NCBI GenBank assembly: GCA_949282745.1
Contig: CASDQM010000007.1
Location: forward strand, 1 to 33,990
Reading direction: 5' to 3'
Source: an uncultured Sutterella sp.
GTDB taxonomy: Bacteria; Pseudomonadota; Gammaproteobacteria; Burkholderiales; Burkholderiaceae_F
DNA length: 33,990 bases
The translations under genes were made by a program, and so were the position numbers. The notes under the pieces are model-generated. The model saw nothing but the letters and a program-made list of their open reading frames with translations, made no database searches and was not told the DNA's origin. This document shows, one piece after another, positions 3,629 through 25,320 of the stretch; the first letter of the stretch is position 1, and every line of letters starts with the position of its first letter.

Positions 3629-5383
3629 TTACTTCGCGGCTTCGGCAGCGGCCTTACCGGCGATGCGGCCAAAGACGATGATGTCCGTGTAGGCATTGCC
3701 GCCGAGGCGGTTCGTGCCGTGCGTGACACCGGTGACTTCACCCGCGGCCCAGAGACCCGGGATGACCTTGCCTTCCTTCGTCAAGGCCTGAGCCTTTTCG
3801 TTGATGCGGATGCCGCCCATGGTGTGGTGGGTCGACGGCACGGCCTTGATCACGTAGTACTTGCCCTGGCTCATGTCCATGAGGCCGCCACGGTGATGGA
3901 AGTCCTTGTCGTTGCCCTTGCCGGCCATGGAGGTGACGCGGTCAACGGTCTTCTTCAGCTGATCGAACGGGATCTTCGTGAAGTCGGCGATGCATTTAAG
4001 GTCATCGCAGGTCGCCATGATGCCCTGTTTCGTGAAGGCTTCGTATTCGGTCGTGTGCGTGCCGACCGTGTTGGAGATCTTGCCGATGTTGTCGTTCCAG
4101 AGAACCCAGCAGTAGCCGCCCGTCTGCTTCAGGATGGCTTCGGAGAGCACGTCGCGGCGGTCGAGTTCTTCCACGAAGCGCTTGCCTTCCTGGTTGAGCA
4201 TGATGGCGCCGTCAAAGCGGGAGTCGGCGATCAGTTCGATCACGCCCGAGATCGGGTCGCAGATCGGGTAGGTCTGGATGTAGCCCATGTTGACGAGTTC
4301 GGCACCGGCCTTTTCGGCGATGTAGAGGGCTTCACCCGTGGTACCCGGAGCGTCGGTCGTCATGAAGCGTTCGTCGATCTTCGGGTTGTACTTCTTGACC
4401 ATTTCCTTGTTCGCGCCGAAGCCGCCCGTGGCGAGAACCACGCCGCCCTTGGCGTTGAACGTGTATTCGGCACCGTGCATCGTGGCCTTGACGCCCGAGA
4501 CGCGGCCGTCCTTGTCAAGGATGAGGTCCGTCATCTTCATGTTCGTGATGACGGGGATGCCGAGTTCGTCGGCCTTGGCCTGGAACTTCGTGATGAATTC
4601 CGTGCCGGTGTGGCCGACCGGAATCAGGGCGCGCTTGCGGCTGTGGCCGCCGAAGAAGAAGAGGTTGTCGTCTTCAAAGCGGACGCCGAGGTAGTCGCGG
4701 CACCAGAGAGCGGCGTCGAGAGCCTGATGCGTCATCACGTTGATGACCTTCATGTCGCCCTTGCCGTCACCGCCCTTGAACGTGTCCTGAGCGTGGAGTT
4801 CGGGAGAGTCGTCGTTGATGCCGAGCTTGGGCTGGACCCAGTTCTTCGCGGCGTTCATTTCAGCGCCGGAGATGAGGGAGTTGCCGCCGACGGCGGGCAT
4901 CTTTTCAAGCAGAACGACGTTCGCGCCGGCGTTCTTGGCTTCGATGGCGGCCGAGAAACCGGCACCGCCCGCGCCGACCACGACGACGTCATACGAAGAG
5001 GTCTTGGGGAGATCCTTGGCGACCTTCTTGATGGCCTTCTTGTCGGCCTTCGAGAGCGTGACGCCGGCCTTCTTGGCGGCGTCCTTCACGGCGTCAAGGA
5101 AGCCCTTGGAGGTGAACGTGGCGCCCGAAATCACGTCGAGGTCGGCCGAGTTCGTGGCGATGACCTGATCCTTCAGGTCCGTGTAAACGCCGCGGGCAAG
5201 AACCTTGTTTTCCTGTTCCTTCACGACCTTGATGTCGGTGATCTTGCCGCCGTCAAACGTGACGGAAACCGTCACGTCGCCGTGCTTGCCCACGCCCGTG
5301 CCTTCCGCCGTAACGGCGGCGGCCATGGCGCCGCCCGCAAAAACCGTGGCGATCAAGGCCGTAACCAACGTCTTCTTCATCAT
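3629..5383 (-). CDS. Secreted FMN/FAD flavocytochrome-c-type reductase (fumarate/urocanate reductase family)
   Basis: A 584-residue periplasmic respiratory reductase that should pass electrons to a C=C double bond of fumarate, urocanate or a related acid. Start chosen at MMKKTLVTAL, which opens a clean Sec signal peptide (cleavage near AMA-AA, 20-23); upstream in-frame codons would spoil it. Residues 26-110 are an FMN-binding domain with the covalent flavinylation motif D83..SGAT89. A linker is followed by the FAD domain: DVVVVGAGGAGFSAA (132-146), GGNSLISGAEMNAA, LNQEGKRFVEELDRRD with Arg410 matching the catalytic arginine of fumarate reductases, HHTMGG (519-524) and the closing GEVTGVTHGTNRLGGNA. 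There is no heme-binding CxxCH, so a separate cytochrome must feed it. The substrate is undetermined. Controlled, I infer, by the TetR gene upstream. Confidence 0.9.
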   Translation of the reverse strand: MMKKTLVTALIATVFAGGAMAAAVTAEGTGVGKHGDVTVSVTFDGGKITDIKVVKEQENKVLARGVYTDLKDQVIATNSADLDVISGATFTSKGFLDAVKDAAKKAGVTLSKADKKAIKKVAKDLPKTSSYDVVVVGAGGAGFSAAIEAKNAGANVVLLEKMPAVGGNSLISGAEMNAAKNWVQPKLGINDDSPELHAQDTFKGGDGKGDMKVINVMTHQALDAALWCRDYLGVRFEDDNLFFFGGHSRKRALIPVGHTGTEFITKFQAKADELGIPVITNMKMTDLILDKDGRVSGVKATMHGAEYTFNAKGGVVLATGGFGANKEMVKKYNPKIDERFMTTDAPGTTGEALYIAEKAGAELVNMGYIQTYPICDPISGVIELIADSRFDGAIMLNQEGKRFVEELDRRDVLSEAILKQTGGYCWVLWNDNIGKISNTVGTHTTEYEAFTKQGIMATCDDLKCIADFTKIPFDQLKKTVDRVTSMAGKGNDKDFHHRGGLMDMSQGKYYVIKAVPSTHHTMGGIRINEKAQALTKEGKVIPGLWAAGEVTGVTHGTNRLGGNAYTDIIVFGRIAGKAAAEAAK

Positions 5384-5477
5384 AATTTTTTCCACACCTT
5401 TGTGATCTGCCGAAGCGCCCCATTCCGACGCCTCGGTCAAACAAAAGAAAAACTCCCGCAACTTCGGAAGCGAGTGG

Positions 5478-5506
5478 AGTATATTCGACCGTTTGGTCGG
5501 TTTCCA
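5478..5506 (-). promoter_or_regulatory. Proximal promoter of the flavin reductase
   Basis: Reading minus: -35 TGGAAA (5506-5501), 17-bp spacer, -10 TATACT (5483-5478), about 95 nt before the start codon. The spacer is almost wholly occupied by a TetR-type palindrome, the classic position for repression. Confidence 0.65.
5486..5500. promoter_or_regulatory. TetR-type operator O1
   Basis: CGACCGTTTGGTCGG: half-sites CGACC and GGTCG form an imperfect palindrome inside the -35/-10 spacer of the reductase promoter. It shares its half-site with O2 at 5585-5600, so both are probably bound by the adjacent TetR protein. Confidence 0.7.
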
Positions 5507-5584
5507 GTCCGCACTAACCCTAAGATTCTCATCTTTCCCTTTCTCAGAGGGCGAGACAGCCTCCTAGGCATTTTCACTAGTTCA

Positions 5585-5600
5585 CCGACCGATCGGTCGG
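5585..5600. promoter_or_regulatory. TetR-type operator O2, perfect 16-bp palindrome
   Basis: CCGACCGATCGGTCGG is a perfect inverted repeat with the same CGACC/GGTCG half-sites as O1, centred 100 bp from it. It directly follows (minus direction) the TACAAT -10 at 5608-5603, so it would cover that promoter's start site. Confidence 0.75.
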
Positions 5601-5602
5601 AA

Positions 5603-5608
5603 ATTGTA
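5603..5608 (-). promoter_or_regulatory. Candidate distal promoter (-10) of the flavin reductase
   Basis: TACAAT on the minus strand immediately upstream of O2. No good -35 is visible, so this is weaker than the proximal promoter. Confidence 0.35.
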
Positions 5609-5673
5609 TTTTGGAGAAGGTCGGCAAAAGTCGGCTATGCGGGTGAGAAGGCGGGATTTCACCTCGCCCCGAC

Positions 5674-6297
5674 TCAGACGCGCTCGAGGAGCGCGCGCAT
5701 TTCGGCGAAGACGGCCTCCTTCTGATCGGCCGTCATGCCGTCGAGCGAAAACTTGCGGGTAAAGAAGAGCCCCTCCATCGCCATGAGGCAGAAGATGACT
5801 TTGGAGCGCACCCGGAAGGGAAGCGCTTCGGCCCGCGCGATGAGGCGGCGGTACCAGGCGCGCACGGGCTCGAGCAATTCCGGGTCGTGCGATGCGAGGG
5901 CCAAAAGGCTCACCCCCACCTGCGCCCACTCGCTGCTGTCGGCATCGAATTCCCGAAACCAGCGCACGTAGGCGGCGATGAGAGCACGCCCTTTCGCCTC
6001 TTCGTCGTTGCGCTCGGCTTCGCTCAGGTTCGAGAGCGCCCAGGCCTCGTTTCGGCACAGGCGCCCGTTCATGTGCTCGGCATACTCTTCGATGAGCGCC
6101 TGAAGAAGGGCCCGACGGGTCTTGAAGTGGTACATCACGGCGCCCTTGCTTTTTTCGCACCGCAGGGCGAGCTGATCCATGCTGAGGCGGTCGATCCCGC
6201 GCTCCACAATCAGTTCCCGCGCCGCACGCAGCATGGCCGCGCGCGTCATTTTGGCTTTGTCGGACGACATGAGGTTCCCGGCTCCGTGAGTTTTCAA
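5674..6297 (-). CDS. TetR/AcrR family transcriptional regulator (adjacent to flavin reductase)
   Basis: A DNA-binding repressor-type protein, 207 residues if it starts at the TTG at 6297, which has AGGAAG 6 nt upstream. An ATG at 6270 (198 residues, MSSDKAKM) is the alternative and has a weaker ribosome site. The TetR N-terminal domain is clear: helix TRAAMLRAARELIVERGI (18-35), HTH SMDQLALRCEKSKGAVMYHF (39-58). The C-terminal ligand domain has no recognisable signature. It is transcribed toward the flavin reductase, and the intergenic space holds two TetR-type palindromes, one within the reductase promoter. I infer it represses the reductase until a substrate or related acid is sensed. A gene-proximal half-site (6311-6325) suggests autoregulation. 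Confidence 0.88.
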   Translation of the reverse strand: MKTHGAGNLMSSDKAKMTRAAMLRAARELIVERGIDRLSMDQLALRCEKSKGAVMYHFKTRRALLQALIEEYAEHMNGRLCRNEAWALSNLSEAERNDEEAKGRALIAAYVRWFREFDADSSEWAQVGVSLLALASHDPELLEPVRAWYRRLIARAEALPFRVRSKVIFCLMAMEGLFFTRKFSLDGMTADQKEAVFAEMRALLERV

Positions 6298-6310
6298 AAT
6301 TTTCTTCCTG

Positions 6311-6402
6311 ACGGACCGACCGAACCCTCCCCTTCTCGGGGCAAAGCCGCATCACAAAGTCCGTTCGAGCGTGACGGTCATTGTATAGGAAAGAAGACCG
6401 TC
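6311..6402 (-). promoter_or_regulatory. Promoter region of the TetR gene with operator-like repeats
   Basis: A TATACAAT -10 reads on the minus strand at 6387-6380. It is enclosed by the inverted repeat GACGGTC (6373-6379) / GACCGTC (6396-6402). Closer to the gene, ACGGACCGACCGAAC (6311-6325) contains the ACCGACCGA half-site seen in O2. Both suggest autoregulation; no good -35 is visible. Confidence 0.4.
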
Positions 6403-17158: not shown

Positions 17159-17175
17159 CTATACAATTGGCGAGT

Positions 17176-17187
17176 GAACAATCGTTC
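17176..17187. promoter_or_regulatory. TetR-type operator at the start of the regulator gene
   Basis: GAACAATCGTTC is a near-perfect palindrome (one mismatched pair), widened by TGGCGA / TCGCCA arms on both sides. It lies between the promoter and the regulator's ATG, where binding would block its own operon. Confidence 0.55.
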
Positions 17188-17203
17188 GCCATGGGAAAAG
17201 AAA

Positions 17204-17800
17204 ATGAGAAAACCCGTCCTGCGCCGCACGCACTCCGAGAGAGAACAGCAGATTCTCGAAATCGCCGCCCGCTCCTTCCGGGAGCGGGGCTTCGAAGGCG
17301 TGTCGCTCTCGGATCTCGCCCGAGAGGCGGGCGTCACGCGCAACCTCGTCTACCACTACTTTCCCAACAAAGGGGCCCTCTTTGAGGCGGTGCTCGGTCA
17401 TCAGGCGGAGCGCCTTCTCGAACAGCTTCCCGAACCCGAAGGACCGGGGTCGGAAGAAAACCTCCTCGCCCTCCTTACGTCCGTCATCGAGCTCGGAAAC
17501 GGCTGCCGCGACGTTCTGCGCCTCTCATTCGGGCGCCCGACGCGAAAGCAGTTTCTTTACGCCCACACGGCCTGGGCGAAGGAGCAGCTCGAACCTCGCC
17601 TCGCCCGCGCCATGGGACTTGCCGCGGACCTTCCTTCGCAAAGGGCGTTTTCCGCCTTCACGGGCATGCTTCTACACTTTCTCATGGACGCCCCCGAAGA
17701 GCTCTATCGAAACCACGAGCGGGAATGGGCCGAATATTTCGCCCGCATTCTGCGGGAAATGATCGAACGACTCCCCGCCATCGAACAAAAACAACCGTAA
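17204..17800 (+). CDS. TetR/AcrR family transcriptional regulator of the activase operon
   Basis: A 198-residue TetR-type regulator from ATG at 17204 (a GTG at 17174 would add 10 residues but has no ribosome site and would overlap the operator). The N-terminal domain is textbook: REQQILEIAARSFRERGFEGV (13-33), HTH SLSDLAREAGVTRNLVYHYF (34-53), then NKGALFEAV. The C-terminal effector domain is not assignable. The next gene begins 12 bp after its stop, so the two form an operon, and a palindrome in front of it points to autoregulation. Since TetR proteins often sense acyl-CoAs or aromatic acids, the ligand may be linked to the activase substrate; this is inference. Confidence 0.87.
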   Translation: MRKPVLRRTHSEREQQILEIAARSFRERGFEGVSLSDLAREAGVTRNLVYHYFPNKGALFEAVLGHQAERLLEQLPEPEGPGSEENLLALLTSVIELGNGCRDVLRLSFGRPTRKQFLYAHTAWAKEQLEPRLARAMGLAADLPSQRAFSAFTGMLLHFLMDAPEELYRNHEREWAEYFARILREMIERLPAIEQKQP

Positions 17801-17812
17801 GAGAGACACGTC

Positions 17813-20800
17813 ATGCTTTTGGGACTCGACCTCGGATCCACCACCGTCAAGTACGTGCTTCTTGACGACGACCGCAAGATCCTTGCGCGCGACTACCGCC
17901 GCCACAAGAGCGATCTGATCCTGACCGTCCGAACGCTCCTTTCCGAACTCAACGAACGCTTTCCCGGACGTCCCGTGCGGCCGGTGCTGAGCGGCTCGGG
18001 CGCGCTCGCCCTGAGCGAGGCGCTTGGCGTCACCTTCCTGCAGGAAGTGGCGGCGGGCGCGACCTTTCTCGCCGAACGTCTTCCCGACGCCGACGTCGCA
18101 ATCGAACTCGGGGGCGAAGACGCGAAGCTCCTCTATCTCACGAACGGTCTGGAACTGCGCATGAACGAAGCCTGCGCGGGCGGGACCGGCGCCTTCATCG
18201 ACCAGATGGCGGCGCTCCTTTCGACCGACGCCGCGGGCCTGGACGAACTCGCGCTCTCCGCCTCGGTCTCGCACCCGATCGCCTCGCGTTGCGGTGTCTT
18301 CGCGAAGACCGACCTCGTCGCGCTCCTCAACGCGGGGGTTCCCCGCTCGGAAGCCGCGCGAAGCGTCTTCGACGCCGTCGCGGAACAGACGATTTCAGGG
18401 CTCGCCTGCGGGCGTCCGATCCGCGGAAAGATCGTTTTCCTGGGCGGTCCGCTCTCCTTCCTCAAGGGCCTTCGCGAGAGCTTCATCCGAAAGCTCGAGG
18501 GTCCAGGGCAGAGCTTCACGGCGCTTGACGACGCGCACTTCGCGGTCGCCCACGGGGCGGCGCTCACGGCCGACGAGTCGGCGGAACTCGCGAACCTCGG
18601 CGAACTCATCGAGCGCTTCGCGAAGGTCCGCGTGGAAGCGGGGGCCGGACGTCTTCCCGCCCTCTTTGCGAACGACGGGGAGCTCGAGAGCTTCCGCGCG
18701 CGCCACGCCAAGGAAAAGGTGGAGCGAGGCGACCTCTCTCAGGCCCGGGGCGACCTCTACCTCGGGATCGACCTCGGAAGCACCACGGTGAAGGGCGTCC
18801 TGATCGACGAAGAAGGCCGTTTTCTCGCCGCCTGGTACGAACGAAACGAAGGGAATCCCCTCGAGCGCCTTTTCCCGCGCGTGAAGACCCTCACGGCGTC
18901 CCTTCCCGAGGGCGCGCGCATCCGCTCGATCTGCACGACGGGCTACGGGGCTGAACTCGCCAAGGCGGCGCTCGGCGCCAACTGGGCCGAAGTCGAAACG
19001 CTCGCGCATCAGCGCGCGGCCGCGCACTTCGCACCCGACGTGAGCTACGTGATCGACATCGGCGGGCAGGACATGAAGTGCCTCGCCGTGAAGGACGGGC
19101 TCATTTCCGGGGTGACGCTCAACGAAGCCTGCAGCTCGGGCTGCGGGTCCTTCCTTCAAACCTTCTCGGACCAGCTCGAACTCACGCTTTCTGAATTCGT
19201 GGCGGCGGCGCTTCGCTCGCGCTCGCCCGTGGATCTCGGCACCCGCTGCACGGTCTTCATGAATTCCAAGGTGCGTCAGGCCCAGCGCGACGGCGCGTCG
19301 ACGGACGACATCGCGGCGGGGCTTTGCCACTCGATCGTACGAAACGCGCTCTACAAGGTCCTTCGCATCCGAAACGCCGACGAACTCGGCCAACACGTCG
19401 TCGTACAGGGCGGAACCTTTTTGAACGACGGCGTCTTGCGCGCCTTTGAAACCCACATCGGGCGCGAAGTGATCCGCCCCGACATTGCGGGACACATGGG
19501 CGCCTACGGGGCGGCGCTTCTCGCCAAGGAGCGCACCACAGCCGAAACGCCCGTTCCGGGACTCGACGAAAAGACCTTCGACCTTACCGACGTGAAGCGG
19601 CGCGAATTCCTCTGCCGCGGCTGCAGCAACCACTGCCACCTCACGCTTCACCGCTTTGCCTCGGGCGAAAAGTTCGTGAGCGGCAACCGCTGCGAATTCG
19701 CCTTGAAGTCGCTCGGCCGCGCCGCGAAGGACGAAGTCTCCTTCCACGACGAAAAGACGGCGCTCCTCTTTGACCGCCCGGTGCTCGAAGAGCCTCCTCG
19801 CGGGACGATCGGGATTCCGCGGGTCCTCAACGTCTACGAACACTATCCCTTCTGGCACGCGTTCTTTACGAAGCTCGGCTTCAAGGTCGTGCTCTCGCCC
19901 GCCTCGAACCGCACGATCGCGGCGAAGGGGACCGAAACGATTCCTTCGCAGACGCTTTGCTGGCCCGCGAAGCTCGCGCACGGCCACGTGACGTGGTTGG
20001 CCGAAGAAGGGGTCGAACGCATCTGGCTTCCCTCCGTCGCGCGCGAAGGTACGCCCTTCCCCGAGGGCGACGCCCGCTACGCCTGCCCGGTGGTCGGGGG
20101 CTATCCGGAAGTGCTTCGGTTGAACCTTCTCACGACCTTCCCGAAGATTTCGCTCAAGGCGCCCTTCATCGACCTCGAGCGCGAGGACTCGGTCCTCGCG
20201 GGCGTCTGCGAATCCTTCCCCGAACTCGGCCGCGACGAAGTGCGCGAAGCCTTCCGGGCGGGGCGCGAGGCGCTTTCGCGCTACCGCGACCAACTTCACG
20301 CGATCGGCGAAGAACGCGCCGCGCTCGCGCGCGCCAAGGGCGTGCCCCTCATCGTGCTCGCGGGCCATCCCTATCACCTGGATCCCCTCGTCAACCACGG
20401 GATTCCGACCCTCATTTCTTCCATGGGGGCGGAAGTCGTGACCGAGGACGCGGTCGCGCACCTCGTCCTCAATCCGAAGCCCCTTTCGGTCGTCAATCAG
20501 TGGACCTTCCACAGCCGTCTCTACCGCGCGGCCGAATATGCGCTCGAGCACCCCGACGTCGAAGTCGTGCAGTTGGTGAGCTTCGGCTGCGGTCTTGACG
20601 CCGTGACGAGCGAACAGATGAAGCGTCTGCTCGAGCCCGAAGGGAAGCTCTACACGCTTCTCAAGATCGACGAAGGCGACGCCTTCGGCGCGGCCCGCAT
20701 TCGTCTTCGCTCCCTCATGGCGGCCTTGGACGACCGACACCGCACGGAAAAGCACCGCGTCATCCCGATCGCCTCGATTCCGCACGGCCATGCCGCGGAC

Positions 20801-22060
20801 GACGATGAGGAAAAGCAGCCCAAGCTCGAAAAGGGCTCGACCCTCTACGTCCCGCAGATGGCGCCGATTCACTTCCCGGTCCTCACCTCGGCCCTCGGAT
20901 CCTTGGGCTACGACGTGCGGCTTCTCTCGGACGTGCGCCCGAACGCCCTCGAACTCGGCCTTCGCTACGTCAACAACGACGCCTGCTATCCGGCGATCGT
21001 CGTGATCGGGCAGTTCCTCGACGCGCTCGCCTCGGGCGAGATCGACGCCGAAAAGCCCGTTCTCGTCCTCGCGCAGACCTGCGGGCCCTGCCGCGCGACG
21101 AACTATCCGAACCTGCTGCGCTGGGCCCTTCGCGATTTCGGACGCCCCGAAATCCCCGTCTATTCGATTTCGGCGGGCTCGATCGATCCGGTGCATGCGC
21201 TTCCGATCGGCGTCAAGGGGCTTCACCGCATGACCCACGCGGTGCTCTACGGCGACATGCTGCAGCGGCTCACGCACTCCGTGCGCGCCCGCGAAGTGAC
21301 GAAGGGCGACGCCGAAGAACTTCGAAGGAAGTGGACCGACATCGTGTCGCTTCGCGTCAAAAACGGCTCCTACTTCGGCTACACCGACACGCTTCGCCGC
21401 ATGACGGCGGACTTTCTGCGCGTGCCGGTTCGCGCCGAGCGGATTCCGCGCGCGGGCGTCGTCGGGGAAATCCTGCTCAAATATCACCCCGACGCGAATC
21501 AGCGCATCGTCGACGAGATGATCGATCAGGGGGTGGAGCCGGTCGTCGGCGACCTCTCGAGCTTCTTCCTCTACTGCCTCTACGACGACGTCTACCGCGC
21601 CGAGCAGTACGGCGACTCCAAGGGAAAGGCCTGGGCGGCGAAACTCATGATCGGCTGGATCGAGTCGCTTCGCAAACGCTCGGCGTCGGTTCTCGCGGGG
21701 ACGCCCTTCCCGAAGCCCCACAGCCTCGCCTCGGGACTCGCCCACATCCGCGGCGTCGTCTCGGCCGGCCAGCAAGCGGGCGAAGGGTGGCTCCTCACGG
21801 CCGAAATGATGGAAAGCCTTGAAAACGGCATTCCCAACGTCGTGTGTCTGCAGCCTTTCGGGTGCCTCCCCAACCACATCACCGGCAAGGGCGTCATGCG
21901 CACCCTTCGCGAACGCTTCCCCGAGGCGAACCTCTGCGCCATCGACTTCGAAGCGGGCACGAGCCGCGCGAACGTCTCGAACCGCCTCAAGCTCTTCCTG
22001 CGTCAGGCGAAGGAGCGTTTCGAGAAGGAAGAGGGAAAAGGCCGATTTGCACAAAAATAA
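17813..22060 (+). CDS. Giant 2-hydroxyacyl-CoA dehydratase activase fusion (double BadF/BcrA-type ATPase plus cysteine-rich DUF2229-like region)
   Basis: A 1415-residue cytosolic iron-sulfur ATPase. It has two complete ASKHA activase domains in tandem. Domain 1 (1-~265) opens GLDLGSTTVKYVLL and has Cys121 in NEACAGGTG and Cys160 in RCGVF. Domain 2 (~310-575) opens LGIDLGSTTVKGVL and has Cys440 in NEACSSGCG and Cys479 in RCTVF. In each the two cysteines are 39 residues apart, the same spacing as the [4Fe-4S] ligands of HgdC. Then come CRGCSNHC (Cys601, 604, 608) plus Cys627, and a DUF2229/HgdB-like part with Cys716, Cys758, NNDACYP (Cys1058), TCGPC (Cys1090, 1093), Cys1255, Cys1345 and Cys1351. 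HgdC-type proteins hydrolyse ATP to push one electron to very low potential. Here activator and probable acceptor are in one chain. Natural substrate unknown. Operon with the TetR gene. Confidence 0.88.
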   Translation: MLLGLDLGSTTVKYVLLDDDRKILARDYRRHKSDLILTVRTLLSELNERFPGRPVRPVLSGSGALALSEALGVTFLQEVAAGATFLAERLPDADVAIELGGEDAKLLYLTNGLELRMNEACAGGTGAFIDQMAALLSTDAAGLDELALSASVSHPIASRCGVFAKTDLVALLNAGVPRSEAARSVFDAVAEQTISGLACGRPIRGKIVFLGGPLSFLKGLRESFIRKLEGPGQSFTALDDAHFAVAHGAALTADESAELANLGELIERFAKVRVEAGAGRLPALFANDGELESFRARHAKEKVERGDLSQARGDLYLGIDLGSTTVKGVLIDEEGRFLAAWYERNEGNPLERLFPRVKTLTASLPEGARIRSICTTGYGAELAKAALGANWAEVETLAHQRAAAHFAPDVSYVIDIGGQDMKCLAVKDGLISGVTLNEACSSGCGSFLQTFSDQLELTLSEFVAAALRSRSPVDLGTRCTVFMNSKVRQAQRDGASTDDIAAGLCHSIVRNALYKVLRIRNADELGQHVVVQGGTFLNDGVLRAFETHIGREVIRPDIAGHMGAYGAALLAKERTTAETPVPGLDEKTFDLTDVKRREFLCRGCSNHCHLTLHRFASGEKFVSGNRCEFALKSLGRAAKDEVSFHDEKTALLFDRPVLEEPPRGTIGIPRVLNVYEHYPFWHAFFTKLGFKVVLSPASNRTIAAKGTETIPSQTLCWPAKLAHGHVTWLAEEGVERIWLPSVAREGTPFPEGDARYACPVVGGYPEVLRLNLLTTFPKISLKAPFIDLEREDSVLAGVCESFPELGRDEVREAFRAGREALSRYRDQLHAIGEERAALARAKGVPLIVLAGHPYHLDPLVNHGIPTLISSMGAEVVTEDAVAHLVLNPKPLSVVNQWTFHSRLYRAAEYALEHPDVEVVQLVSFGCGLDAVTSEQMKRLLEPEGKLYTLLKIDEGDAFGAARIRLRSLMAALDDRHRTEKHRVIPIASIPHGHAADDDEEKQPKLEKGSTLYVPQMAPIHFPVLTSALGSLGYDVRLLSDVRPNALELGLRYVNNDACYPAIVVIGQFLDALASGEIDAEKPVLVLAQTCGPCRATNYPNLLRWALRDFGRPEIPVYSISAGSIDPVHALPIGVKGLHRMTHAVLYGDMLQRLTHSVRAREVTKGDAEELRRKWTDIVSLRVKNGSYFGYTDTLRRMTADFLRVPVRAERIPRAGVVGEILLKYHPDANQRIVDEMIDQGVEPVVGDLSSFFLYCLYDDVYRAEQYGDSKGKAWAAKLMIGWIESLRKRSASVLAGTPFPKPHSLASGLAHIRGVVSAGQQAGEGWLLTAEMMESLENGIPNVVCLQPFGCLPNHITGKGVMRTLRERFPEANLCAIDFEAGTSRANVSNRLKLFLRQAKERFEKEEGKGRFAQK

Positions 22061-22099
22061 GGCATTTTCATCCACTTCCGTGACATTTCCATGACAAAG

Positions 22100-22264: not shown

Positions 22265-22942
22265 TCAAACGTCGCTTCGGCGGCGAAGGAGTTCAAGCGC
22301 CGCATAGAGAACGAGGGCGACCGCGGCGAGGACCGCACAGAGGGCCGTCGCCGTGTCGAAGTCCCCGCGCCCGACGGCGTTGTAGATTTCCAGCGACAGC
22401 GTGTTGGTCTTGTCGGAGACGTTCCCGCCCAACATCATCGTGATCCCCACTTCCCCGCTCGCCCGGGCGGTCCCGAGCAAAAAGGCGGAGAGAACGGCGT
22501 TTCGGACCGTCGGCAGGGTCACGCGAAGGAAGGTCGTAAGGGGCGTCGCGCCGCAGACCCGCGCCGCGCATTCGAGATCCAGAAGGGTCTTCGATTCGAA
22601 GGCCTCCTTCACGGGCCGGATCACGAGCGGCATGCCCGCAATGAAGGCGGCCAAGGTCACCGCCGTCTGTGAAAAGACGATACGGGTTCCGAAGGCTTCG
22701 TGGATCACCGACCCGAGGGGACCGTTGATCCCGAGAAGAAGGAGGAGAAGGTAGCCCAGGGCCACGGGCGGGAAGATGAGCGGAAGCGTCGCGACGAAGA
22801 GGACCGCGCGCGAAAGACGCGTCTTCGAGCGCGCCGTATAGAGCGCCAGGGGTACGCCGATCACGGCGAAAAGAACGAGGCTTGAAAAGGCCGCCTGCAG
22901 CGTGAGCGTGATCGGAAAGACGAGTCCGTTCATCGAGTCCAC
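22265..22942 (-). CDS. modB: Molybdate ABC transporter permease
   Basis: A 225-residue inner-membrane permease of the molybdate importer, with about five TM helices. The EAA loop that docks on the ATPase is ECAARVCGATPLTTFLRVTLP; ARASGEVGITMMLGGN is the ModB-specific stretch after it. GTG at 22942 is chosen since AGGAGG ends 4 nt upstream; an ATG 9 nt inside (MNGLVFP) is possible. The start overlaps the end of modC by 13 bp, implying translational coupling. Last gene of the modADCB unit. Confidence 0.92.
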   Translation of the reverse strand: MDSMNGLVFPITLTLQAAFSSLVLFAVIGVPLALYTARSKTRLSRAVLFVATLPLIFPPVALGYLLLLLLGINGPLGSVIHEAFGTRIVFSQTAVTLAAFIAGMPLVIRPVKEAFESKTLLDLECAARVCGATPLTTFLRVTLPTVRNAVLSAFLLGTARASGEVGITMMLGGNVSDKTNTLSLEIYNAVGRGDFDTATALCAVLAAVALVLYAALELLRRRSDV

Positions 22943-23634
22943 GGCGCCTCCTTCACGTAGCCGTGGCGCGTGAGCACGGCTTCGGTGTCGTCGTATTCGG
23001 CGATTCGCCCTTTTTCGACGTAGAGTGCCTTGGGTGCGAGGCGAAGGGCCTCTTCGCCCATGTGCGTGATGTAGAGGATGGGAAGCGCCGTGTGGCGCGC
23101 AACCGCGGCGACCCCTTCGACAAGTTCGCCCCGCAGTTCCGGGTCGAGCGACGCCGTGGGTTCGTCGAGAATCAGCATCTCGCGAGCGGCGCAGAGCGCC
23201 CGCGCGAGCGACACGCGCTGCGCTTCGCCGCCCGAGAGCGTCGAGGGACGACGATCGAGAAGTTTTTCAAGGTGCAGAAGCGCGACGGTCTCCTCCCAGG
23301 GAACGAGCGGCGTTCTTCCTCCGAAGCGTTGCGGAAAGAAGATGTTCTCGCGCACGCTCATCGCGGGAAAGAGGCGGTGGTTTTGAAAGACGAAGCCGAT
23401 CCCGCGCGCCTCGGGAGGCAGGCGCACGCCCTTTTCGACGTCGTCGAGGACCTTGTCGCCGATTGCAAAACGCCCGGCGTCGGGCGCGGTGAGGCCCGCC
23501 ATGAGGTTGGCGAGCGTCGACTTCCCCGAGCCGCTTCGCCCGAGCACCGCCGTGAGGCCGCGCTCCGGGAGGCGTCCCGCCAGGTGAAAGGCGGGGCCTC
23601 CCTCAAAGCGCTTTTGATAGTCGAACTCGATCAC
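22930..23634 (-). CDS. modC: Molybdate ABC transporter ATP-binding protein, short form
   Basis: A 234-residue ATPase that drives molybdate import. Walker A GRSGSGKST (32-40), Q-loop FQNHRLFP, signature LSGGEAQ (133-139), Walker B MLILDEP (153-159), His191 switch. GTG start at 23634 overlaps the modD stop in a GTGA junction, so the two are coupled; the longer upstream reading lies in another frame of modD. Compared with typical ModC (~350 residues), the C-terminal TOBE/Mop domain that binds molybdate and mediates trans-inhibition is absent: the protein ends ~20 residues after the nucleotide domain. Uptake may therefore lack feedback at the transporter. Confidence 0.9.
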   Translation of the reverse strand: MIEFDYQKRFEGGPAFHLAGRLPERGLTAVLGRSGSGKSTLANLMAGLTAPDAGRFAIGDKVLDDVEKGVRLPPEARGIGFVFQNHRLFPAMSVRENIFFPQRFGGRTPLVPWEETVALLHLEKLLDRRPSTLSGGEAQRVSLARALCAAREMLILDEPTASLDPELRGELVEGVAAVARHTALPILYITHMGEEALRLAPKALYVEKGRIAEYDDTEAVLTRHGYVKEAPWTR

Positions 23635-24482
23635 GGCCGGACGTCGGTCGGAACCGACATGCGCATCTTCACGTCGTGCGGACGCCCGAAATAGGGCCAG
23701 GACGTGACGAGGAAGTCCGCGCCCGCCTTGGCGTAGTCGGCGGCGTTCCCCGCATTGACGCCGCCGGCGGCGGAGACGATGATCGCGGGATGCTTCGCTT
23801 TGGCCGCGGTGACAAGCGCCCCGACGTCTTCGGGCGACATCTTGTCGCACTGCAGAATGTCGGCTCCGAGATCCGCCGCGCGCACGCCCTCTTCCGCGTC
23901 GCCCACTTCGACCGCGACCTTGCGTTCGGGGTCGAGTCGGCGAAGCGTTTGAAGGCGCTCGGCAAAGTCGGGCGAGAAGACGCGGTGCTGATCAAAGATC
24001 AGGATCGATTCCGAAAGGCCCGTGCGGTGCACGAGTCCCCCGCCCGCCTCGACGGCGAGAAGCGAGAGACGCTTCGTGCCGGGGAAATGCTTGCGGGTCG
24101 TCACGACGCGGCAGTCGGGGTTGACGGCCTGCGCCGCTTCGACCATCGCGCGCGTTCTCGTGGCGATCCCCGAGGCGTACTCCATGACGTTCTGAGCGGC
24201 CTTGTAGACCGCATGGATGCGGTCGGCGCGGCCGACGGCGCGAAGGAAGACGGTCTTGGCGGGAAGACGCGAGCCGTCCTCGGCCCGGCGGGTCACGCTG
24301 AGGCCAGCCTTCAGAAAGATCCGTTCGGCGAGTTCCGCTCCCGCAAGAACGCCCTCTTCCTTAAAAAAGCACTCGACGGCCCCGCGGGCGCCTTCGAGTC
24401 CGAGAAGGCGCGACGTGAGGTCGCCGTAGGGAATGTCTTCGGAAAGAATCGCCTCGAGTTCGGCGTCGGGAAAGAAGTACAT
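23631..24482 (-). CDS. modD: ModD protein (molybdenum-locus quinolinate phosphoribosyltransferase paralogue)
   Basis: A 283-residue protein of the nicotinate-nucleotide pyrophosphorylase fold. DIPYGDLTSRLLG (16-28), EYASGIATRTRAMVEAA, VTTRKHFPGTKRLSLLAV and GGLVHRTGLSESILIFDQH are features of the ModD branch rather than NadC. The barrel ends with ILQCDKMSPEDV and VSAAGGVN. ModD occurs only in some molybdate operons and its reaction is not firmly established. GGGAGG is placed 4 nt before the ATG, 12 bp after the modA stop. It could still have NadC-like activity; position in the operon and motifs favour ModD. Confidence 0.88.
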   Translation of the reverse strand: MYFFPDAELEAILSEDIPYGDLTSRLLGLEGARGAVECFFKEEGVLAGAELAERIFLKAGLSVTRRAEDGSRLPAKTVFLRAVGRADRIHAVYKAAQNVMEYASGIATRTRAMVEAAQAVNPDCRVVTTRKHFPGTKRLSLLAVEAGGGLVHRTGLSESILIFDQHRVFSPDFAERLQTLRRLDPERKVAVEVGDAEEGVRAADLGADILQCDKMSPEDVGALVTAAKAKHPAIIVSAAGGVNAGNAADYAKAGADFLVTSWPYFGRPHDVKMRMSVPTDVRP

Positions 24483-24494
24483 GACGCCTCCCGA

Positions 24495-25226
24495 TCAGCG
24501 GACGCCGGCCTTTTCGAGGACCTTCTTCCCCTTGGGCGAAGCGAGGCACCCGAGGAACTTCTGCACGTCCGCGTCCTTTTCGGCGCCTTCCACCACGGCC
24601 GCGACCATTTCAATGGGTTCGTAGCCTTCGTTGATGGCCATCACGCCGCCCAACTTCGCGCGGTTCTTCTGCGCGGCCTGCCAGTTGACGAAGCCCGCGT
24701 CGACTTCGCCCTGCAGCACGTAGGACATCACCTGCGGCACGCCCGCGACGCCGAGGAGCTTGGGCGTCACGGCCTTCTTCACCGCTTCGGGGCTCTTCGC
24801 CACCCATTCGGTGCCGGCGCGGCCGTAGACGGCGGCCTTGGGATCGGGGTGCGCAATGCGCTTGACGCCGTCCTTGGCGAGATCTTCGGGATTGGTGATC
24901 GTCACGCCCTTACGCCAAATGAGCATGAGGGGCGTCTTCCCGAGCGACTGCATCGTCGAGAACTTGACCGGGGTCTTCATCTTGAGAAGCGTCGTGCGGT
25001 CGGTGACGACGACGTTGACGCCGCTTCCCGACTTCACCTGCGCGAGCATCTGACCGATGTTGCCGCCGAAGCTCTTTTCAATCGGCGCGGCGGTTTCGTT
25101 CTTGCAGACTTCGACGAGCTTTTCGACCATCGGCACGTAACCGCCGCCGGTCGTGACCGTGACGGCCGCCGAGGCGCCGAGGGAAAAGGCGATGAGCGAA
25201 AGGGCGACGAGCGTACGCTTGGGCAT
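24495..25226 (-). CDS. modA: Molybdate ABC transporter periplasmic binding protein
   Basis: A 243-residue periplasmic protein that captures molybdate or tungstate. MPKRTLVALSLIAFSLGASA is the signal peptide, followed by VTVTTGGGYVPMVEKLVEVC and the ModA-type SFGGNIGQMLAQVKSGSG with the oxyanion-binding Ser; YVLQGEVDAGFV is the conserved hinge segment. The start has GGGAGAG 7 nt upstream, whereas the longer in-frame reading lacks a signal. First gene of the operon. Upstream (minus) CATACT at about 25265-25260 could be the -10. No ModE-type palindrome or modE gene is present, so regulation is unknown. Confidence 0.9.
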   Translation of the reverse strand: MPKRTLVALSLIAFSLGASAAVTVTTGGGYVPMVEKLVEVCKNETAAPIEKSFGGNIGQMLAQVKSGSGVNVVVTDRTTLLKMKTPVKFSTMQSLGKTPLMLIWRKGVTITNPEDLAKDGVKRIAHPDPKAAVYGRAGTEWVAKSPEAVKKAVTPKLLGVAGVPQVMSYVLQGEVDAGFVNWQAAQKNRAKLGGVMAINEGYEPIEMVAAVVEGAEKDADVQKFLGCLASPKGKKVLEKAGVR

Positions 25227-25320
25227 GAGAATCTCTCCCGTAAAAGAAATGGAATGCTCCAAGTATGCACGCGTTATTCCAAAAAAGCAAAACGCTTGCA
25301 GGAATTCTTTCGGTCCGTCT

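Follow-up and report, generated by a model that had tools for sequence, protein, structure and literature searches.

A predicted single-chain plasmalogen synthase of the PlsA-PlsR type encoded by an uncultured Sutterella-lineage bacterium

Introduction

Plasmalogen synthases are oxygen-sensitive enzymes that convert ordinary membrane lipids to plasmalogens. The one encoded by plsA-plsR was found in Clostridium perfringens, and in facultative anaerobes a single gene suffices. According to passages of PMC12838417, the genes from Enterococcus faecalis, Lactococcus cremoris, C. perfringens and Bifidobacterium longum give rise to plasmalogens in Escherichia coli, and the domains in AlphaFold3 models of the enzyme are named Act1, Act2, Red1 and Red2. 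Here we compare with these enzymes a protein of 1415 amino acids encoded at 17813..22060 (+ strand) of a stretch of 33,990 nucleotides (the window), which is part of contig C7 (CASDQM010000007.1) of an uncultured Sutterella sp. (assembly GCA_949282745.1; 2.5 Mb, 92.5% complete). The open reading frame (ORF), Pfam matches, homologs, conserved cysteines and the literature indicate that it is very probably a fused, single-chain ether-lipid reductase of the PlsA-PlsR type, most likely a plasmalogen synthase.

The described synthases (C. perfringens CPE1194/1195 and the single-gene enzymes of E. faecalis, EF1327, L. cremoris and B. longum) share with the window protein the domain order Act1-Act2-Red1-Red2, the length and the conserved cysteines; in the same source the two-gene fragment of C. 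perfringens measures 4,199 bp, about the length of the window ORF. A TetR gene precedes the synthase gene here, and the same arrangement has been described in E. faecalis and further facultative anaerobes. The systems differ in host, which is here a betaproteobacterium of the Sutterella lineage, and in the TetR gene, which has the same direction here, whereas it is divergent in the Enterococcus loci of our survey. The layout is already published, and at the family level its function is known. An earlier note, made from the DNA sequence alone, had regarded the substrate as open and had named a characterised function of this exact architecture as a refutation of its reading; the homologous PlsA/PlsR enzymes, with their published function, close that question at the level of the family.

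Several other systems are related. Ger (Thermotoga maritima Tmari_0479 and the Desulfatibacillum alkenivorans enzyme) is a PlsA homolog that converts glycerol esters to ethers and yields saturated alkyl ethers; it is set beside the window protein by its description in passages of the literature only. MbdPQ/BzdPQ with MbdON/BzdNO combine an activator of two different chains with a two-part reductase, but they consist of separate subunits, act on CoA esters and have a double cubane cluster in BzdN. HadI with HadBC and HgdC with HgdAB have the same activase fold, and Red1 is folded like the HadBC chains; their activators are, however, homodimers encoded by their own gene, and the substrates are 2-hydroxyacyl-CoA compounds. 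HgdC activators possess a cysteine pair spaced 39 residues apart, and an ASKHA fold with such a pair, as in HgdC/HadI-type activators, is present in the window protein. The DCCP:DCCP-R system differs in being a homodimer with double cubanes, whereas the Red1 core of the window protein has three invariant cysteines.

Results and Discussion

Domain organization

Pfam detected two BcrAD_BadFG stretches in the 1415-residue protein, followed by DUF2229 at residues 665-881. The first ASKHA activase, Act1, covers residues 1-253 (17813..18571, + strand; 52.8 bits at 18053-18571) and contains C121 and C160. A sequence search of the Protein Data Bank (PDB) matched residues 3-251 to the solved chain MbdP (9gai_C), and Act2 (residues 314-579; 18752..19549, +), with C440, C444 and C479, matches MbdQ. 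A four-cysteine β-strand module of residues ca. 594-630 (19592..19702, +) comes next; in the predicted model its strands are at residues 594-600, 609-615 and 620-624, and according to script and alignment C601, C604, C608 and C627 are invariant. Red1, the DUF2229 half (residues 649-975; 19757..20737, +), has a predicted fold of the HadBC/DCCP/BCR type and the invariant residues C716, C758 and C926. Red2, the PlsR-like half (residues 1004-1407; 20822..22033, +), contains C1058, C1093, C1345 and C1351; the evidence for it comes from the cysteine alignment and from a profile search in which HGD-D proteins were matched weakly (probability 68). The linker between them, residues 976-1003 (20738..20821, +), has a predicted local distance difference test (pLDDT) score below 50 at residues 982-1000 and coincides with a gene border in Fusobacterium (locus L116), where the same protein is encoded by two genes of 975 and 404 codons. 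Because of this split we place the PlsA/PlsR border near residues 975-1005. The structural comparison covered predicted domain folds only. Together with the Pfam matches it bears out the layout of the earlier note: a single chain in which two activase domains are joined to a reductase half with the fold seen in BCR, HAD and DCCP.

No other DUF2229 or BcrAD_BadFG match was found in the assembly. HGD-D (PF06050) has no match in the 1415-residue protein or in the assembly (92.5% complete), in agreement with the earlier claim that no 2-hydroxyacyl-CoA dehydratase is encoded nearby, and a Pfam scan of 22 ORFs in the window gave no CoA-transferase, no genome-wide search for it having been made. For the reductase half, the PDB copy that was searched held no solved relative detectable by sequence; all significant matches were to activator-type chains.

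Conserved cysteines

A script confirmed the previously noticed motifs, with C121-C160 and C440-C479 both 39 residues apart and CxxCxxxC formed by C601, C604 and C608. Further cysteines, described before as conserved-looking, are indeed conserved in an alignment of 99 relatives, most of which are the 80 closest members of a larger set and most of which are 42-62% identical. Fourteen positions carry cysteine in all 99 (C121, 160, 440, 444, 479, 601, 604, 608, 627, 716, 758, 926, 1058 and 1093), whereas 97 of the relatives have C1345 and 98 have C1351. Even the most distant sequence, from Haliovirga (L117; 33% identity), has all 14 invariant cysteines. Partial conservation was seen for C199 (83/99), C423 (71/99) and C1255 (52/99), while C374, C505, C799, C1090 and C1375 are poorly conserved. 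Because the key cysteines are conserved across these 99 relatives, they are not there by chance. The ten-residue blocks with C121, C160, C440 and C479 have mean pLDDT values of 68-75.

In Red2, the spacing of C1058, C1093 and C1345 (35 and 252 residues) is close to that of Cys95, Cys128 and Cys380 (33 and 252), which ligate the active-site cluster in BzdO; this similarity suggests that the active site is in Red2. The Red1 core has three invariant cysteines (C716, C758, C926), with four more in the preceding module, as compared to six used by the double cubane of BzdN.

Homologs and distribution

At least 584 related stretches were confirmed, and the best 80 loci, which match over nearly the full length with 42-62% identity in the best segment, were kept. 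Identity to the window protein is 44% for Enterococcus raffinosus (L067), 44% for a locus with host label E. faecalis (L114) and 45% for Listeria (L115), and all three have the two BcrAD_BadFG stretches and DUF2229. Two BcrAD_BadFG stretches were found in all six relatives scanned besides the window protein, these Enterococcus and Listeria proteins among them. Whole plsA genes occur as well in unannotated records named 'Enterococcus phage' or 'Listeria phage' (OR846627.1, OR848391.1 and others), which are probably contigs of host DNA.

Full-length copies are present in 21 of the 67 genomes of the family, pieces in 4, and partial matches confined to the activase region in 12. Within the genus, G053 (L086) and G057 (L096) encode proteins identical to those of Sutterella massiliensis and a Sutterella sp. 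metagenome-assembled genome (MAG) (L003, L005), which suggests a Sutterella-like organism as the source of the window. In a quick tree of 100 sequences, arbitrarily rooted and with composition bias flagged, 20 sequences (the window protein, three loci with Sutterellaceae in the title and sixteen from the family of the window's genome) join five Desulfovibrio sequences with a Shimodaira-Hasegawa-like approximate likelihood ratio (SH-aLRT) of 100; a sixth, long-branched Desulfovibrio sequence (L066) falls just outside this group. The topology suggests that plsA may have been transferred between gut lineages. DUF2229 matches were also seen in Thermus composti and Deinobacterium chartae, which are generally regarded as aerobes.

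Evidence for plasmalogen synthesis and alternative functions

Besides the homologs with tested lipid function, the lipids of the family are consistent with a plasmalogen synthase. Two Mesosutterella species (Sutterellaceae) contain C16:0 dimethyl acetal (DMA; 11.6% and 3.8%), C18:1 DMA (8.7% and 4.3%) and C16:0 aldehyde (4.1% and 1.25%), as listed in passages of PMC11022602; DMAs arise from vinyl ethers. In M. multiformis, C16:0 DMA amounted to 3.8% without nitrate, given with no error, and was undetected at 1, 10 and 50 mM nitrate; Table 1 of the same source likewise lists C16:0 aldehyde without nitrate and as undetected with nitrate (passages of PMC7765368). This effect is a possible lead on the regulation of plasmalogen formation. 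The window's own genome encodes a phosphatidylserine decarboxylase, for phosphatidylethanolamine synthesis.

As regards the product, Ger remains a real rival. The same machine would then carry the reaction onward, yielding saturated alkyl ethers at the sn-1 position and possibly also at sn-2. Ger activity has been shown by expression for the T. maritima and D. alkenivorans homologs. Passages of PMC13274423 state that PlsA and Ger are generally indistinguishable by primary sequence, and that in most screened genomes plasmalogens accompany a single activation domain, the alkyl-ether-only producers having two; the window protein has two. So, however, do the relatives from Enterococcus and Listeria, genera reported to contain plasmalogens (passages of PMC9702350), and the Sutterellaceae show DMAs, the marker of vinyl ethers. 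We consider a Ger-type product unlikely. Other points also weigh against assignment as a plasmalogen synthase. A literature search turned up no experimental work on the window protein or any Sutterella PlsA, the DMAs of Mesosutterella are linked to the gene by family membership, and L114 is an unverified phage record labelled with E. faecalis as host, distinct from EF1327 itself. Red1 gave no match to HGD-D proteins in the profile search by sequence, but its predicted fold, resembling the HadBC chains, is related to the HGD-D fold.

The patchy distribution in the genus (full length in 6 of the 12 genomes, pieces in one, no match in 5) also counts against the assignment and might point to a copy that has decayed or fallen silent and no longer functions. 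In the same genus, the plsA of G056 (L108, G056:C86:23316-25926) is a single frame of 834 amino acids whose two matching segments are separated by a gap at residues ca. 479-1005, owing either to decay or to an assembly error. The window gene is one open frame with all conserved cysteines, and the copy in G060 shows 98% protein identity, so that loss of function here is extremely unlikely. The earlier idea of an electron pump plus acceptor akin to double-cubane proteins, with a soluble substrate sensed by the TetR protein, conflicts with end-to-end relatives of tested lipid function and with a Red1 core that falls short of the six cysteines of BzdN; we consider it very unlikely.

The TetR gene and neighboring genes

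The TetR/AcrR-family regulator (198 amino acids; 17204..17800, +; TetR_N, E 1.6e-17) ends 12 nt before the plsA-like ORF on the same strand. Its mechanically called ORF begins upstream at GTG 17174, but ATG 17204 is preferred as start, since in the closely related locus L085 a single nucleotide is inserted between both positions. Within 17160..17189 (+) we read a weak candidate -10 motif, TATACAAT (17160-17167), and an imperfect 16-bp palindrome, GTGAACAATCGTTCGC (17174-17189, +), which is a weak candidate for a TetR operator: it is symmetric at 12 of 16 positions, other palindromes of that stretch are equally good, and 14 of 16 positions are the same in L085.

In E. faecalis, the TetR/AcrR regulator EF1326 is encoded directly upstream of EF1327 (passages of PMC9702350). 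Among the 80 genome loci surveyed, 7 of which have less than 500 nt of upstream sequence, a TetR gene is directly upstream in 11 (8 on the same strand, 3 divergent). Within the family of the window's genome this holds for 8 of the 21 full-length loci, all on the same strand, while the upstream TetR gene is divergent in the two Enterococcus loci (L067, L114). Further cases are Desulfovibrio MAGs (L006, L035), Desulfosporosinus (L074) and actinobacterial MAGs (L055, L070), whose regulators need not be orthologs of EF1326. The earlier description of the protein as having its own TetR thus fits this locus but does not extend to the family as a whole; the neighborhood survey shows that the pairing is recurrent, not obligatory. 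Its range extends beyond the facultative anaerobes that passages of PMC9702350 mention.

Opposite plsA, an open frame of 1226 amino acids (18395-22075, -) is taken as a codon-composition shadow in high-GC DNA, since similar frames occur opposite plsA in several relatives. At 22265-25262 (-) is a transport operon for a solute-binding protein, a permease, an ATPase and a quinolinate phosphoribosyltransferase-like protein, which we take to be a molybdate ATP-binding cassette transporter with ModD. A FAD/FMN-binding fumarate-reductase-like protein is encoded at 3629-6355 (-), adjoining a second TetR gene (TetR_C_28).

Proposed mechanism

The two ASKHA domains would form an internal heterodimeric activator with one [4Fe-4S] cluster held between C121/C160 and C440/C479. 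An electron from ferredoxin or flavodoxin would be lowered in potential by ATP binding and hydrolysis and pushed into the Red1/Red2 pair, with predicted three-cysteine clusters at C716/C758/C926 (Red1) and C1058/C1093/C1345 (Red2). In a diacyl phospholipid, the ester at sn-1 could then be reduced to a hemiacetal by two electrons that reach its carbonyl one at a time, and loss of water would give the vinyl ether of a plasmalogen. ATP-gated transfer, one-electron steps and water loss are drawn from the enzyme families involved. The same-direction TetR protein most likely represses its own gene and plsA, and would dissociate in response to anaerobiosis or to the state of the membrane.

A bolder and rather unlikely version is that the four-cysteine module (C601/C604/C608/C627) packs on the Red1 cluster and both hold a double cubane or two-cluster electron store. 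One chain would then unite the cluster of the activator, a store for two electrons and, at the active site, a cluster that reduces a membrane lipid ester, and in the Sutterella lineage the TetR protein would switch this enzyme according to electron-acceptor supply; the latter is suggested by the disappearance of C16:0 DMA from M. multiformis in the presence of nitrate (passages of PMC7765368).

Implications

DMAs have been reported for Sutterellaceae, and the passages of PMC11022602 and PMC7765368 tie no gene to them. The 14 invariant cysteines, in four groups, offer defined targets for mutagenesis and spectroscopy. Goldfine has described orthologs of the plasmalogen genes in some Proteobacteria (passages of PMC9702350), and the locus described here very probably places an anaerobic plasmalogen enzyme in a gut betaproteobacterium of the Sutterella lineage.
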